Shown here one piece after another: positions 13,342-19,515 of a stretch of 64,000 nucleotides of DNA. A program made the position numbers and the translations under genes. Each line of letters starts with the position of its first letter. The first letter of the stretch is position 1. Under the pieces are notes generated by a model. The model made no database searches and was not told the DNA's origin. It saw only the letters and a list, made by a program, of their open reading frames with translations. The stretch is from Candidatus Cloacimonetes bacterium HGW-Cloacimonetes-3 (GTDB lineage: Bacteria > Cloacimonadota > Cloacimonadia > Cloacimonadales > Cloacimonadaceae): assembly GCA_002840645.1 (NCBI GenBank), contig PHBO01000003.1, forward strand, positions 1 through 64,000. The letters are read 5' to 3'.

Positions 13342-14064
13342 TCAAAACAAGCAAAAGATAGTTAGCAGGATAAGCCCTGCAAGCATGAAAGCGTCGGCAA
13401 TACCGGCGCTTTTCTTGTGCAGAAAGCTGCGCTTACCCTTGCTGCGGAAGCCCCGCAATTCCAAGGCTATAGCGGCATAATTGCTGCCGTTGATGATTCC
13501 TGCCAAAGCTGCAACTGCCAAGAGCTTATATACAGCCATACGTTGCTTCCATGGTAGTTTGGATGGCTCTATGCCCCTCAGATGCAGACTTCGCACAAAG
13601 CCTTTCAGCTTGGCAGAAAAACCCGGGATAAGCTGCACTCCGTAGGATAGCATAAAGCTGAATTCCTCCGGTAAATGGACAAAGGCAAAGGCGGTTTGGA
13701 AATCCTGAAAGCTGCTGCGGGAAATGGCTTTGGCACATAGCAGCACCGTCGCCAGACGCAGGCTAAGCACCGTTGCCCAGAATATCCCCCCGCTGCTGAT
13801 GCTCAAGATGCCATAATGCCACCACTGCTCTCCCTCCTGACGAAAGATAAGCTGCAATACGGCTATAGACAAGATAAAAGGCAAGCTGCGCCACAGGCTA
13901 TAGAAGGTTCTACGCCAGCCATAACCAAGCCTGAGGGAGGAATACACGATGCTAAGCCCAAAGAAAAGGCAGAGCTGTGCTAAAGAGGCACTAACAAACA
14001 CCAAGCTGCTTAGAACCAGGCAGATAAGGATATGGCTTAGGGGGTGCAGATGCAGCTTAAGCAT
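13342..14064 (-). CDS. ECF transporter T component (EcfT/CbiQ family)
   Basis: The product is 240 residues with about five or six membrane helices. It is the transmembrane coupling subunit of an energy-coupling-factor importer. Two Ala-Arg-Gly-type coupling motifs are present in slightly altered form: S-L-H-L-R-G-I-E (about residues 163-170) and A-L-E-L-R-G-F-R (about 203-210), as expected for the long helices that touch the two ATPases. Its start overlaps the preceding ATPase gene by 8 nt. It is the last gene of the operon dcd-like deaminase, S, periplasmic protein, A', A, T. Confidence 0.85.
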   Translation of the reverse strand: MLKLHLHPLSHILICLVLSSLVFVSASLAQLCLFFGLSIVYSSLRLGYGWRRTFYSLWRSLPFILSIAVLQLIFRQEGEQWWHYGILSISSGGIFWATVLSLRLATVLLCAKAISRSSFQDFQTAFAFVHLPEEFSFMLSYGVQLIPGFSAKLKGFVRSLHLRGIEPSKLPWKQRMAVYKLLAVAALAGIINGSNYAAIALELRGFRSKGKRSFLHKKSAGIADAFMLAGLILLTIFCLF

Positions 14065-14671
14065 GGCGAAGCTCTTTTATGCTGCCCTCGGAAAGTTCCA
14101 GCACTCTGTCGAAGTGGCTTTCTTTATCACCCAGTTCGTGCGCCACTACCAGCATTCCCGGCTGTGCCTTTGTCTTTTTACAAACAAGCTCAAACAGAGC
14201 TTCACCTGCTTTTGTATCCAGCGAGGCGAAGGGTTCGTCCAGCAGCCAGTATTTGTGCATCAGATAGGGCAAGATGCGTTGGGAATCCTGCTTCTGCTCT
14301 CCGCCGGAGCGTTCGCTAAACAGCTCATCCGCTCTGTCAGTTAAAGCTGCCAACCCCGGTATGGCTATCCGCCACATCTGCCAATCCTGCTGCTGGCTTA
14401 TGCCCAAGAGGTTATCAGCAGTGCTCTGGCTTTGGTAAAACACGTGTTGAAATAACCCCGCATGCACCTTTGTAACCGGTTTACCGGCGATTGCTACCGT
14501 GCCGGACTGAGGGCTTAGGATGCCCATCATCAGCTTTAGCAGAGTGCTTTTCCCACAGCCATTCTCGCCCTTTAGCAGGATGTTCTCGCCCGGCTTTAGG
14601 TGCAGGCTAAGCATATTGAATAGCAATGCCTTGCCATCGTAGCCGAAGCAGAGTTTATCCAGATGGATCAT
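14057..14671 (-). CDS. ECF transporter ATPase (A component)
   Basis: The product is 204 residues, short for an ECF ATPase (usually 260-280). Walker A reads G-E-N-G-C-G-K-S-T (about residues 36-44), the Q-loop falls in Y-Q-S-Q-S-T, and Walker B reads W-L-L-D-E-P (about 143-148) with the catalytic Glu present. The signature is R-S-G-G-E-Q-K-Q, with one extra residue relative to S-G-G-Q-K-Q, a small departure. The C-terminal region typical of long EcfA proteins is missing. It overlaps the other ATPase gene by 17 nt and the T gene by 8 nt, so the subunits are made together. Confidence 0.85.
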   Translation of the reverse strand: MIHLDKLCFGYDGKALLFNMLSLHLKPGENILLKGENGCGKSTLLKLMMGILSPQSGTVAIAGKPVTKVHAGLFQHVFYQSQSTADNLLGISQQQDWQMWRIAIPGLAALTDRADELFSERSGGEQKQDSQRILPYLMHKYWLLDEPFASLDTKAGEALFELVCKKTKAQPGMLVVAHELGDKESHFDRVLELSEGSIKELRHA

Positions 14672-15317
14672 GCTGTGCTCTCTCCATCTGTATCACTACA
14701 TCTGCCATGCTGATCACGGCAGGATGGTGTTCGGCAATCATAACAATGCTCCCTCCTGCTTTAAGCTGATTCAGCCACCTGCAAAGCAATTCCAGGGATG
14801 CTCCAGATAAACCGCTTGCAGGCTCGTCTAACAAGTATAAACCCGGCGCAAGTGCTTTCCCGACAGCGCAAAGCAGCAAACGCTTCTGCCCGCCGCTTAG
14901 AGTTAAAGGAGAGCTTTGCATAGCGTGGCTCAAGCCGAAGTATGCCGCAGCTTCGCTTATTCTGGTGCTAATCTCCGCAGCGGGAATAGCTTTGTTTTCC
15001 AGCGCAAAGGCAAGCTCTGCCTCGCAGGTGGGGAAGAAGAACTGTGTATCCGTATCGCTGCCGGCATGCCACAGATAATGGAATTTTTCCTTAAGAGGAA
15101 TACTGCGCAAGTCTATATCATTAAAGCGGATATCGCCTGTAACTTCTGCGCTGATGTGTTCAGGGATTATGCCGCTGACCGCAGAGAGCAAAGTGCTTTT
15201 ACCGCTGCCGTTTGCCCCGCTTAACACGCATATAGTTCCCTCGCCAAGCGTCAGCTTAAAGCCGCTTAAAACGCTTTTATCGCCGTATGAAACGCTAAGC
15301 TTGCTGATTTGCAGCAT
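14655..15317 (-). CDS. ECF transporter ATPase (A' component)
   Basis: The product is 220 residues. Walker A is G-A-N-G-S-G-K-S-T (about residues 34-42), the signature L-S-G-G-Q-K-R is canonical, and Walker B is L-Y-L-L-D-E-P. Paired with the neighbouring ATPase it forms the motor that drives an ECF-type vitamin or metal importer. Both ATPases are compact, so together they resemble one long EcfA split in two. The stop overlaps the next gene by 17 nt, and its start directly touches the stop of the periplasmic protein gene at 15317. Confidence 0.87.
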   Translation of the reverse strand: MLQISKLSVSYGDKSVLSGFKLTLGEGTICVLSGANGSGKSTLLSAVSGIIPEHISAEVTGDIRFNDIDLRSIPLKEKFHYLWHAGSDTDTQFFFPTCEAELAFALENKAIPAAEISTRISEAAAYFGLSHAMQSSPLTLSGGQKRLLLCAVGKALAPGLYLLDEPASGLSGASLELLCRWLNQLKAGGSIVMIAEHHPAVISMADVVIQMERAQHDPSG

Positions 15318-16246
15318 TATTTAAGCTCGAAGAACAAGGCTCCTTCGAATACCTGAGGCTCTGCCAAAGCATCGGCAAAGCCAAGCTGCAACACCTCATC
15401 TGCCTTATGAATGCTGAAACTCAAGCCCGGATTGCTGTCCCAACCCAGCAGTTTATGCAAGGCTATCAGGCTATTCAGGCTGCTCTGCTCGATCAAGGCT
15501 GTGCCGTCGCATTGCAGGTAAACGATATCCCTTAACCACATTCCCCCCGGTATCTGCGGGCTTTTTAGGTTATAGGTGTCCTCTTTGGTCTTTTCCAACA
15601 CCGCCCCTTCCAGATGGTAAGGATAGTTCAGGTTTTGCTTCAAGCCATCACGGCTGTAAAACACCACCTGATGCTCCTTACTCTCAGAGAGCTGGGGCAG
15701 AAACTCGCTAAAATACCAGCCCTCGGTGTTCACAAAAGGCTTTGGCTCATTCAGCAGATTCTGGCTATCCAGAAATGGCTTCATCAGCATGAACTTAGAG
15801 GGATACGGCAGAGCTTTAAAATTCTCCAGCACCACCCGGCTTAGATCACGCACCCACTGCATTTCACGCAGGCTGGGAAATATCAGACGCAGAGAATTGC
15901 CTTCAAAATCCTTCTCATCCTGCGCCACCACAATCCAGCTTTCCATCGCCTGAAACTCTTCGCTGCTAAGTGTAACCAGATATTTATCTTCCGATTCGAA
16001 ACGGATATTGCTAAACTGTCCCAAGTCTTGCTCTTTAAGCCACACATCAAAGCGGAAGCCCTGCCAGTTATTAAGGCGCACCACTCCGTCTTTCTCGCGG
16101 CTGGTTTTCAGTTCTTGTCTTTCGTGTTTGTACAGCCCTGCATTGTCATATTCTTTGCTGATGCCGTTAGTGTTTATTATCTCCAGCGCATTCACGCTGA
16201 TGCAAATACAAGTGAAGAGCATAGTTAGTAGATAGAATCGTGTCAT
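15317..16246 (-). CDS. Exported protein with two tandem sulfite-oxidase-fold-like halves, in ECF operon
   Basis: The product is 309 residues with a signal peptide (cleavage after V-N-A). Two similar halves can be seen. The first has G-F-R-F-D-V-W-L, then F-E-S-E-D-K-Y-L-V-T-L, then N-S-L-R-L-I-F-P and W-V-R-D-L-S-R-V (about residues 60-140). The second has G-W-Y-F-S-E-F-L, V-V-F-Y-S-R-D-G-L-K-Q, and G-G-M-W-L-R-D-I-V-Y-L (about 175-255). The order (ligand loop, D-G-Y strand, L-R-L-x-x-P, W-V-R-x-I) resembles the molybdopterin-binding fold of the sulfite oxidase family. The catalytic cysteine of that family is absent, so it is unlikely to be an oxidoreductase. Being between S and A genes (4-nt overlap with S), it may present substrate to the importer. 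Function is inference. Confidence 0.6.
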   Translation of the reverse strand: MTRFYLLTMLFTCICISVNALEIINTNGISKEYDNAGLYKHERQELKTSREKDGVVRLNNWQGFRFDVWLKEQDLGQFSNIRFESEDKYLVTLSSEEFQAMESWIVVAQDEKDFEGNSLRLIFPSLREMQWVRDLSRVVLENFKALPYPSKFMLMKPFLDSQNLLNEPKPFVNTEGWYFSEFLPQLSESKEHQVVFYSRDGLKQNLNYPYHLEGAVLEKTKEDTYNLKSPQIPGGMWLRDIVYLQCDGTALIEQSSLNSLIALHKLLGWDSNPGLSFSIHKADEVLQLGFADALAEPQVFEGALFFELK

Positions 16247-16782
16247 TTTATTATCCTTGCTGTTTTTAAAGCCTGATAGGTACCGTATGCCAGATAGCCG
16301 CCCATGATGCCGGAAGCAGTGGCAAAAGCGAAGTTTATTCCCACCATAAGCGCAGGAAGTTTAAAGAAGAATAGAGCAGTAGCCATCGAACCTGTCAAGT
16401 TTGCCACAACCCCCAGGCTCAAGTGTGTTATCAGCTTGTGGCGGTGCTTTATCAGGTGAAACACGATATCTGCCATTATCCCCGGCAAGCTGTAACTAAC
16501 AAGGGAAAAGGCACCCTGTTTACCCGCCATGCCTACCAACAGCACCAGCACCGCCTGCAGAATGCCAAACACCGTACCCGTATATTTCTTGTTCACGATG
16601 GTTACCGCCAACACCAGCCACATCATATAGAAACCGCCGGCAAGCGAACCGCCCGGAATCCCCAGAGGAGTAGAGATAAACTTCGAGATTGGACCCACAA
16701 TGGGCTTAACGGCTATTCCCAAAGCTGCCACGGAGGCAATAATAATCAAATCCGCTGCACTGAACCGCTTCAATACGCTCAC
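16243..16782 (-). CDS. ECF transporter substrate-binding (S) component, substrate unknown
   Basis: The product is 179 residues and strongly hydrophobic, with about six membrane helices, the size and form of ECF S components. A small-residue-rich N-terminal helix (A-S-V-A-A-L-G-I-A) provides the usual docking surface for EcfT. P-G-G-S-L-A-G-G-F-Y-M-M-W-L (about residues 43-56) and a N-L-T-G-S segment are likely to line the binding site. It does not show the known signatures of BioY, ThiT or RibU that I could recognise. The neighbouring riboswitch makes a corrinoid-related substrate possible but not shown. The gene follows the deaminase gene by 4 nt. Confidence 0.72.
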   Translation of the reverse strand: MSVLKRFSAADLIIIASVAALGIAVKPIVGPISKFISTPLGIPGGSLAGGFYMMWLVLAVTIVNKKYTGTVFGILQAVLVLLVGMAGKQGAFSLVSYSLPGIMADIVFHLIKHRHKLITHLSLGVVANLTGSMATALFFFKLPALMVGINFAFATASGIMGGYLAYGTYQALKTARIIK

Positions 16783-16786
16783 TGTG

Positions 16787-17263
16787 CTAAACCAGCTTCT
16801 TCAATTCGTTGCTGCCGAGAGCATATTGCACCAGTTCCACTCCCGCCTCGCGGAATAACTGCTCTCCCAATGCATCAGGATAGGCTTCGCTAACGAACAC
16901 GGTCTTAATCTCGGCATTGATAATCAGCCGCGCACATATGCTGCAAGGCTGATGCGTGCAATACAGCGAAGCACCACGCGTGGAATTGCCATTTATTGCC
17001 GCTTGAATGATGGCATTCTGTTCTGCATGCACACCCCGGCAAAGCTCGTGCCTTTCACCGGAAGGAACATTTTGCTGCTCCCGCAGGCAACCGGTATCCG
17101 CGCAGTGCGGAACGCCTTTGGGGCTACCATTATAGCCCGTGGAGATAATCTGATTATCCCGTATCAAAACTGCTCCCACGGCACGCCGCAGGCAGGTGCT
17201 GCGCTTGGAAGCAAGGTATGCCATCTGCATAAAATACTGTTGCCAGGAGGGTCGTGTTTCCAT
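16787..17263 (-). CDS. dCMP/cytidine deaminase family protein (ComEB-like)
   Basis: The product is 158 residues, matching deoxycytidylate deaminases. These zinc enzymes convert dCMP to dUMP for dTTP synthesis. Zinc ligands and the proton-shuttle glutamate are intact: [11 protein letters not shown] (about residues 73-83) and P-C-S-I-C-A-R (about 106-112). [13 protein letters not shown] is the typical substrate loop. The start has AAGGAGTTTTAT upstream. It is the first gene of the ECF transporter operon (4 nt from the S gene), an association I cannot explain biochemically. Confidence 0.9.
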
Positions 17264-17797: not shown

Positions 17798-17798
17798 G

Positions 17799-17925
17799 CG
17801 GGAAAGACAAGAGGGGGAAGCGGGAAAGACAAGAGGGGAGAGCGGGAAAGACAAGAGGGGGAAGCGGGAAAGACAAGAGGGGAGAGCGGGAAAGACAAGA
17901 GGGGGAAGCGGGAAGGACAAACAGG
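17799..17925. repeat. 22-bp minisatellite with alternating unit types
   Basis: Five exact 22-bp units start at 17799, 17821, 17843, 17865 and 17887, followed by a degenerate partial unit at 17909. All begin CGGGAAAGACAAGAGGGG; they alternate between endings GAAG and AGAG, giving a 44-bp higher-order period. The repeat is purine-rich on the plus strand. There are no unique spacers, so it is not a CRISPR array. It ends about 75 bp before the cobalamin riboswitch. Confidence 0.92.
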
Positions 17926-17999: not shown

Positions 18000-18172
18000 G
18001 ACTTGATGGTGCTTAGCACAAGGTAATAGGGAATTCCGTTAGATTCGGAAGCGGTCTCCGCCACTGTAAGCAGCAAATAGGTTAAAGACGTCACTGTCCG
18101 GTAGATGGGAAGGTGTCTTTAGGCTAAATATAGCCAGCCGCTGCAAGCCAGGAAACCTGCCACAAGTTTGGG
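18000..18172 (+). promoter_or_regulatory. Cobalamin riboswitch
   Basis: The conserved aptamer core is present in order: GATGGTGCTTAGCAC, the G-rich stretch AATAGGGAATTCCG, GAAGCGGTCTCCGCCACTGTAA (18048-18069), and the B12-box-like AAGCCAGGAAACCTGCC at about 18145-18161. These are the hallmark elements of the adenosylcobalamin/hydroxocobalamin aptamer that usually lowers expression of B12 uptake and synthesis genes when the ligand is plentiful. It is followed by a small AGCCT ... AGGCT hairpin (about 18176-18195) and a GAGGTGA ribosome-binding site. Lack of a clear T-run favours control of translation. It points at the beta-propeller gene at 18247. Confidence 0.93.
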
Positions 18173-18246
18173 AAAAGCCTGCGGGGAATAGGCTGAAGCC
18201 AAAGGTTCATCTTTAGGTCACAATATAACGAACGAGGTGAACACCA

Positions 18247-19515
18247 TTGAAACCAATAAAACGTATAAACTCTCTTAACAAAGCCTTCTTCGCAGTTGTA
18301 TTCGTGCTTTCTGCCTATGCTGCTTATGCAGAAACCTTGTATGTGGTAAATTCACAATCCCGCACCCTAAGCAAGATTGACACAAGCACCGATGCCGTTA
18401 ACAACAGCTTTGCAGCGCTGGGAAGTGTTCCCAACAAGATCGTGGTGGATACGGATTACATCTGGTCGGTAAACTCCGGTGATAACGCCGTGCAAAAGAT
18501 ATCCCGCACGACAGGCGCAACGCTGGCAAACATCTTTGTGGGGGCAAGCAGTAATCCCTGGGATGCGGTGAAACATCAGGAAAACCTGTATGTAAGCGGC
18601 TTGTTTACCGGGAAAGTGTATCGGATCAACACCATCAGCGGGGCAGTTACAGGCAGTGTGACGGTTGGCACAGCTCCTGAAGCGCTCCATGTGGTGGGCA
18701 ATAAGCTTTATGTAACCAATGCGGGGAGTTATGCGCAGAACTATGCGGGTAGCTCTGTGTCGGTGATAGATATCAGCAGCTTCAGCGTGCAAAGCACCAT
18801 CCCCGTGAATGCGAATCCGCAGTATCTTGCCTCAGCAAACGGCATGCTGCATGTGTCTTGTACTGGGAATTGGACTGATGTTGCAGGGGCGGTATGCATC
18901 ATTGATACAGTTACGGATACGGTGATACATACCGTCAATACAGGCGGAACTCCGGGATGCTTGTGGCTGGCGAGTACGGAGCTTGCCCTGGTAGCGGACA
19001 GCAATGGAACAAACCTATTTAGCTATAACACCAGTACTTATCAGCTTCTGCACGGGGTGTCCAATCCCTTGTCTAATGGCGGGTCTGAGGTAGTGGGCAA
19101 CAGTACTTTTGTGGCGGTGTTAAGCCCTAATTGGGGTGAGAATGGCACAGTTAAGCTTCTGCATGCGGACTTAAGCCCCTGGAAGCAATATTCAGTTGCC
19201 TTGATGCCGACGGATATGAAGCTGGGCAGCAGTGCTTCCGGTAATGAAGATTTGCTTACTGCTGTAAACAGCCTGATAGCTTATCCCAATCCCGTGAGAC
19301 AAGGATCAGCACTTAAGTTCTCCGGCTTTATAGCTATGCATGGTGAACTGGGCATCTTCAATCTTAAAGGGCAGAAGGTGGCAAGCTATCCCTTTGTGGG
19401 TAAGGAAATTAGCGTGCCGGAATTGAATCTGCCAAGCGGGCTGTATTTCTATCGTGTGCGGGATGATAAAGCCGGTGGGGATACAAGTGTGGGGAAATTC
19501 CTTATTCTGAAGTAG
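18247..19515 (+). CDS. Secreted YncE/YVTN-type beta-propeller, putative BtuG-like corrinoid-binding protein
   Basis: The product is 422 residues. A signal peptide (cleavage after A-Y-A) is followed by about seven propeller blades with the repeated patterns L-Y-V-V-N/L-Y-V-T-N, V-x-V-I-D and I-P-V-N, covering about residues 30-325. The last 85 residues are a sorting domain (Y-P-N-P, G-I-F-N-L-K-G-Q-K-V, L-P-S-G-L-Y-F-Y). It begins with TTG, 7 nt after GAGGTG. In Bacteroides, the surface propeller BtuG captures vitamin B12 with extreme affinity and its locus is riboswitch-controlled. Here the riboswitch directly upstream makes the same role likely, with sorting-domain export replacing a lipid anchor. 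No TonB receptor (BtuB) lies beside it. Fold: sure; ligand: inferred from regulation. Confidence 0.8.
   Translation: MKPIKRINSLNKAFFAVVFVLSAYAAYAETLYVVNSQSRTLSKIDTSTDAVNNSFAALGSVPNKIVVDTDYIWSVNSGDNAVQKISRTTGATLANIFVGASSNPWDAVKHQENLYVSGLFTGKVYRINTISGAVTGSVTVGTAPEALHVVGNKLYVTNAGSYAQNYAGSSVSVIDISSFSVQSTIPVNANPQYLASANGMLHVSCTGNWTDVAGAVCIIDTVTDTVIHTVNTGGTPGCLWLASTELALVADSNGTNLFSYNTSTYQLLHGVSNPLSNGGSEVVGNSTFVAVLSPNWGENGTVKLLHADLSPWKQYSVALMPTDMKLGSSASGNEDLLTAVNSLIAYPNPVRQGSALKFSGFIAMHGELGIFNLKGQKVASYPFVGKEISVPELNLPSGLYFYRVRDDKAGGDTSVGKFLILK

Follow-up and report, generated by a model that had tools for sequence, protein, structure and literature searches.

The 422-aa protein described here is, in all likelihood, a B12-repressed surface corrinoid-capture protein that would be paired with a BtuB-type TonB-dependent receptor and would constitute a BtuG-like variant exported by type IX secretion (T9SS). 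Its gene lies behind a cobalamin riboswitch in the window, i.e. the whole 64,000-nucleotide stretch of DNA that was analysed. An original prediction, made from the letters of this DNA, had proposed BtuG-like B12 capture by a riboswitch-controlled, secreted propeller. The predicted fold, the riboswitch, and the way in which the gene is linked to and co-occurs with that of a BtuB-like receptor all point to such a role. Taken as a whole, that interpretation was supported in part; its core idea has good support and extends further than had been proposed.

The riboswitch, the propeller gene and their genome

The features of the propeller gene and its leader are listed in Table 1.

Table 1. Positions of the leader elements and protein domains in the window
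Feature	Position	Strand	Evidence
Cobalamin riboswitch aptamer, RF00174	17990-18178	+	cmscan, 83.8 bits, model 1-189 (full length)
Putative hairpin AGCCU-GCGGGGAAU-AGGCU at the 3' edge of the aptamer	18176-18194	+	sequence reading
Anti-SD arm GUUCAUCUU of the candidate expression-platform hairpin	18205-18213	+	RNAfold of the leader; pairing in 31 leaders
SD-containing arm (ribosome-binding site) GAGGUGAAC	18234-18242	+	pairs with 18205-18213
BtuG-like secreted propeller, 422 aa, TTG start	18247-19515	+	
Signal peptide, residues 1-28, no lipobox cysteine	18247-18330	+	sequence reading; AlphaFold helix 9-24
Seven-bladed beta-propeller, residues 29-332	18331-19242	+	AlphaFold, Foldseek
C-terminal T9SS type A sorting domain, residues 340-422	19264-19512	+	TIGR04183; sequence match to 8glj

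The cobalamin riboswitch was confirmed by the covariance-model check. A cmscan of the whole window returned a single one, well over the gathering cut-off (83.8 vs 31.5 bits, E 3.7e-19) and at full model length, and the 2.68 Mb assembly contained two, this one included. The aptamer ended 68 nt before the TTG start codon. The GAAU loop of the putative hairpin at its 3' edge is complementary to AUUC at 18043-18046 and is a candidate partner of loop L5. Just 5' of the riboswitch, a 22-bp unit, GCGGGAAAGACAAGAGGGGGAA, was repeated in tandem (5.6 copies, 17798-17920).

The two arms of the candidate expression-platform hairpin can form a 9-bp helix, found by RNAfold in the window leader, which would cover the ribosome-binding site (SD GAGGTG, 18234-18239). 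Among 31 distinct leaders, gathered family-wide from propeller genes as well as btuB genes, 91 % of the cells of this SD-hiding helix were paired, against 37-50 % when the partner was slid. Covariation was weak because the leader sequence hardly varies, and the conservation of the SD itself therefore contributes to the 91 %. No terminator-like site was found on the + strand between 18178 and 18247. Such a hairpin makes translational control the best reading, with a direction of regulation and a ligand response that would follow those of known cobalamin riboswitches.

The protein had been described as a signal-peptide protein with about seven YVTN blades and a C-terminal sorting domain, and each of these parts was recovered. 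The end of the signal peptide was read by eye between AYA and E, approximately, and cysteine was absent there. An AlphaFold model built on a 73-member alignment (mean pLDDT 93.2, propeller mostly >95) placed 28 strands within residues 29-328, in keeping with seven blades of four strands each, followed by a low-confidence linker (333-338) and a separate beta domain. The YVTN repeat model TIGR02276 and the T9SS type A sorting domain TIGR04183 both scored above cut-off (50.7 vs 27.85 and 30.1 vs 23 bits), Pfam Por_Secre_tail PF18962 scored just below it (24.7 vs 27), and the tail matched, by sequence, the solved Por sorting domain 8glj. Conservation was concentrated in the loops of one face of the propeller, its 40 most conserved residues all lying outside the AB/CD loops, and the propeller domain was acidic in all 73 family members. 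Other matches to the propeller-family profile in the window were limited to the tail.

The second cobalamin riboswitch of the assembly (C21:31854-32042) preceded a 726-aa TonB-dependent receptor. Its best sequence match in the PDB was E. coli BtuB (E 1.4e-12), followed by 8bmx, a Bacteroides receptor that is part of a B12 transporter-lipoprotein complex; its best NCBIfam model was TonB-B12, with a score well below the equivalog cut-off. The btuB and propeller genes of this genome are on separate contigs, each with a riboswitch. The genome yielded a single propeller homolog, along with a btuF-btuC pair and four proteins with a B12-binding domain above cut-off. Matches to Por-type sorting tails numbered 119 and the SprA translocon gene was present (a 2095-aa frame, 451.5 bits, cut-off 200), so that type IX secretion is probably available.

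A divergent operon on the - strand (13342-17263) encodes a dCMP deaminase, an ECF S component (PF09819), a 309-aa protein, two ABC ATPases and a CbiQ-type T component, and is probably an ECF importer for a vitamin or a metal. Its transporter genes (13342-16782: PF09819, two ATPases, CbiQ) were considered as the inner-membrane B12 importer and set aside, because no riboswitch stands in front of them and a btuF-btuC pair occurs elsewhere in the genome.

Distribution in Cloacimonadota and other phyla

RF00174 was detected in 101 of 125 Cloacimonadota genomes; most of the riboswitch loci were fetched and their genes clustered. The count of next genes comprised 104 hits in which that gene could be read, one locus giving two, and the propeller came first behind the riboswitch in 38 of them. 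The first gene was btuF in 43 cases, btuB in 15, btuD in three and another gene in five. Gene order differed between groups. Within the family to which the window belongs, propellers mostly stood behind a riboswitch of their own; the order riboswitch-btuB-riboswitch-propeller was displayed by G034, G037, G038 and G042, and riboswitch-btuB-propeller by G012, G029 and G030. In other families, a single riboswitch was followed by btuF-btuC, three genes on the opposite strand and then btuD-btuB-propeller. NifU-, NifS- and Rrf2-like genes, named by sequence reading, lay on the opposite strand within the btu locus of many Cloacimonadota (L118:4093-6333 and similar).

The original prediction had noted the lack of an adjacent btuB. 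This held for the present genome and failed for many relatives, where btuB was immediately upstream of the propeller; since the two genes adjoin there, the missing neighbour is a local separation and not a property of the system. Roughly one propeller per genome was the rule across Cloacimonadota. Exactly one was found in 45 of 50 family genomes and a btuB-profile match in all 50 (a few fragmentary or weak), while the 32 good-quality family genomes all contained both. In five genomes from the same genus as the window (G001, G003, G004, G005 and G008; L218-L222), no cobalamin riboswitch was detectable, and the propeller and a btuB homolog were kept. Their blade-2 motif is SGAN in place of SGDN, and the two changes may reflect altered regulation and ligand.

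Several other genes stood behind cobalamin riboswitches. At L061:1-678 (- strand), the gene behind the riboswitch encodes a secreted protein that repeats a WAGxGxxQxxLxIDW...FAWGY-like motif, matches nothing in Pfam and may be a further surface protein related to B12. The remaining ones, named from their sequences, resembled a fused succinyl-CoA synthetase (sucC/sucD; L060, L062), ribonucleotide reductase (L067) and cobQ (L063).

Named genomes were scanned and yielded propeller relatives from Zixiibacteriota, Calditrichota, WOR-3, KSB1 and GN15 records. A BtuB-like gene was located upstream of the propeller in 23 of 24 loci outside Cloacimonadota, the exception beginning at a contig end; in L196, L197, L198 and L215 an extra tail-bearing frame lay between the two genes. 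Cobalamin riboswitches were found in 14 of the 15 searched loci whose sequence continued 5' of btuB (one of the 14 being weak). Two WOR-3 loci (L196:8684-11251, L198:5043-7514) displayed a tandem propeller pair after btuB. In the homologs of L204 (Zixiibacteriota) and L209, the C-terminus matched dockerin type I weakly and carried no sorting tail.

BtuG homologs were described as exclusive to Bacteroidetes, on the basis of a BlastP cut-off applied to human gut genomes (PMC6143338). The divergent family studied here, whose hosts lie outside that gut set, would have been missed by such a search. The literature search retrieved no report joining YVTN and cobalamin, nor a cobalamin riboswitch with propeller and btuB. 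In the passages retrieved, a paper on Caldithrix abyssi describes a btuB-btuF operon under a riboswitch and no propeller.

Comparison with BtuG and other known systems

BtuG (BtuG1, BtuG2 and BtuG3 of Bacteroides thetaiotaomicron; PMC6143338, PMC10404256) is, like the present protein, a seven-bladed propeller and was its best whole-fold match among solved structures. In the structure comparison proposed as a check, Foldseek ranks 2-17 against the PDB were all BtuG-type entries, mostly at 2.9-3.7 A r.m.s.d. and with target TM of 0.74-0.79 (the longer BtuB1G1 chain excepted); later folds were clearly worse. The top match, both by Foldseek E-value and by sequence, was the archaeal YVTN protein 1l0q, whose whole-chain superposition was poor (15.9 A); repeat proteins inflate similarity scores. 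A profile search of PDB sequences likewise placed BtuG-type chains at ranks 2-13. Sequence identity to BtuG was 17-21 %. Global alignment to BtuG2 and BtuG3 blades 1-3 gave z-scores of 6-7 against shuffles, with blade 1 as the best register for the window protein, a result whose weight is limited by repeat symmetry. DUF5074 (PF16819), which the BtuG1 and BtuG2 fragments match above cut-off, was matched by 10 of the 73 family members (best E 3.4e-7) and not by the window protein.

The resemblance extends to context. Both are encoded with btuB in cobalamin-riboswitch loci, as seen in relatives and in other phyla (the genes being unlinked in this genome), and the acidic propeller domain recalls BtuG2, whose binding face was reported to be acidic (PMC10404256). 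The propeller differs from BtuG in occurring outside Bacteroidota, often under its own riboswitch, and in having no counterpart of the BtuG linker as an N-terminal tether. It also lacks a lipobox cysteine or lipoprotein export signal and ends in a T9SS sorting domain instead, and the different anchoring route of the original prediction was thereby upheld. As the literature treats the lipoprotein anchor as part of BtuG, the protein is best called a BtuG-like, T9SS-sorted variant and not a BtuG. The further suggestion of an independent version of the same idea is unproven. BtuG provided the best whole-propeller match among solved structures and some members match DUF5074; a divergent, T9SS-sorted relative of BtuG is for these reasons at least as likely as convergence, and homology is favoured.

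The other known systems were more distant. The best models of the partner gene were B12 receptors, here and in relatives, which brings it close to BtuB, the TonB-dependent B12 receptor of E. coli and Bacteroides; it differs by a weak N-terminal CarboxypepD_reg-like stretch and by scores far below the BtuB equivalog cut-offs. The YVTN surface-layer propeller 1l0q and YncE share the YVTN repeat sequence. The former did not superpose globally, the latter was absent among the 50 folds listed, and neither is tied to B12 in the sources used. BtuH and BtuJ are accessory B12-binding surface lipoproteins of riboswitch-regulated loci, and DUF4465 (BtuJ-type) proteins were reported from several phyla (PMC8941943, PMC13398666); these consist of unrelated domains and, unlike the window protein, are not propellers.

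Alternative readings and proposed mechanism

The neighbourhood of the gene raises the question of iron. fur (19624) and feoB (20048) are encoded on the same strand, starting ~110 nt past the propeller stop, and BtuF/TonB-type proteins resemble heme systems too, from which an iron or heme acquisition protein could be imagined. However, fur and feoB did not lie downstream of the propeller in surveyed relatives, the riboswitch family senses cobalamin and the best models of btuB are B12 receptors. A functional link to Fur/FeoB was rejected, as this neighbourhood was not conserved beside the propeller, and an iron or heme role appears very improbable; the view that the riboswitch heads the propeller gene alone was retained.

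Two other readings leave the propeller in the B12 regulon. It could act as a released corrinophore, secreted and off the receptor, that binds environmental corrinoids and returns to BtuB like a protein siderophore. The T9SS tail in place of a lipid anchor, the frequent riboswitch of its own apart from btuB and the missing N-terminal tether would suit such a cycle, but T9SS type A cargo is generally retained at the cell surface, and the btuB adjacency in other families and phyla fits a stable complex better. Release is accordingly considered rather unlikely. The propeller might instead bind no corrinoid and serve the receptor in another way, for example as an adhesin, a scaffold or a structural lid, as its low identity to BtuG and its generic YVTN similarity would allow. 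Against this stand the strong conservation confined to one face and the acidic domain that is shared with the reported BtuG2 binding face (PMC10404256), and a non-binding role is regarded as distinctly doubtful.

Under the preferred reading, surface capture of corrinoids in partnership with BtuB, low intracellular cobalamin would let the riboswitch leave the ribosome-binding site free and the propeller would be made. The signal peptide would take it over the inner membrane and T9SS over the outer membrane, guided by the C-terminal sorting domain. At the cell surface, the acidic propeller would bind corrinoid on the face with conserved loops and hand it to the BtuB-like receptor encoded on C21, the second riboswitch target, from which BtuFCD-type proteins would move it inward. 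With plentiful cobalamin, aptamer binding would favour the hairpin that hides the ribosome-binding site. Points that weigh against this reading are the separate contigs of btuB and propeller in this genome, the missing DUF5074 match of the window protein, the top rank of 1l0q and the close relatives in which no riboswitch was detectable.

We give about even chances to a broader proposal, namely that these proteins form a second branch of propeller-assisted B12 uptake, sorted by T9SS, across Cloacimonadota, Calditrichota, Zixiibacteriota, WOR-3 and related phyla. This branch would dispense with the N-terminal lipid hinge, the propeller being either a C-terminally anchored BtuB lid or a released, reusable B12 collector. 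Since its anchor is of a different type and at the opposite end, the T9SS-sorted propeller would put to the test the need for a lipid-anchored 'pedal-bin' hinge. For the genome of the window, with its four B12-binding-domain matches, the finding points to B12 scavenging. Many of the host organisms are known from metagenomes only. If true, the occurrence of the btuB-propeller pair in several phyla would turn a speciality of gut Bacteroides into a widespread uptake strategy.
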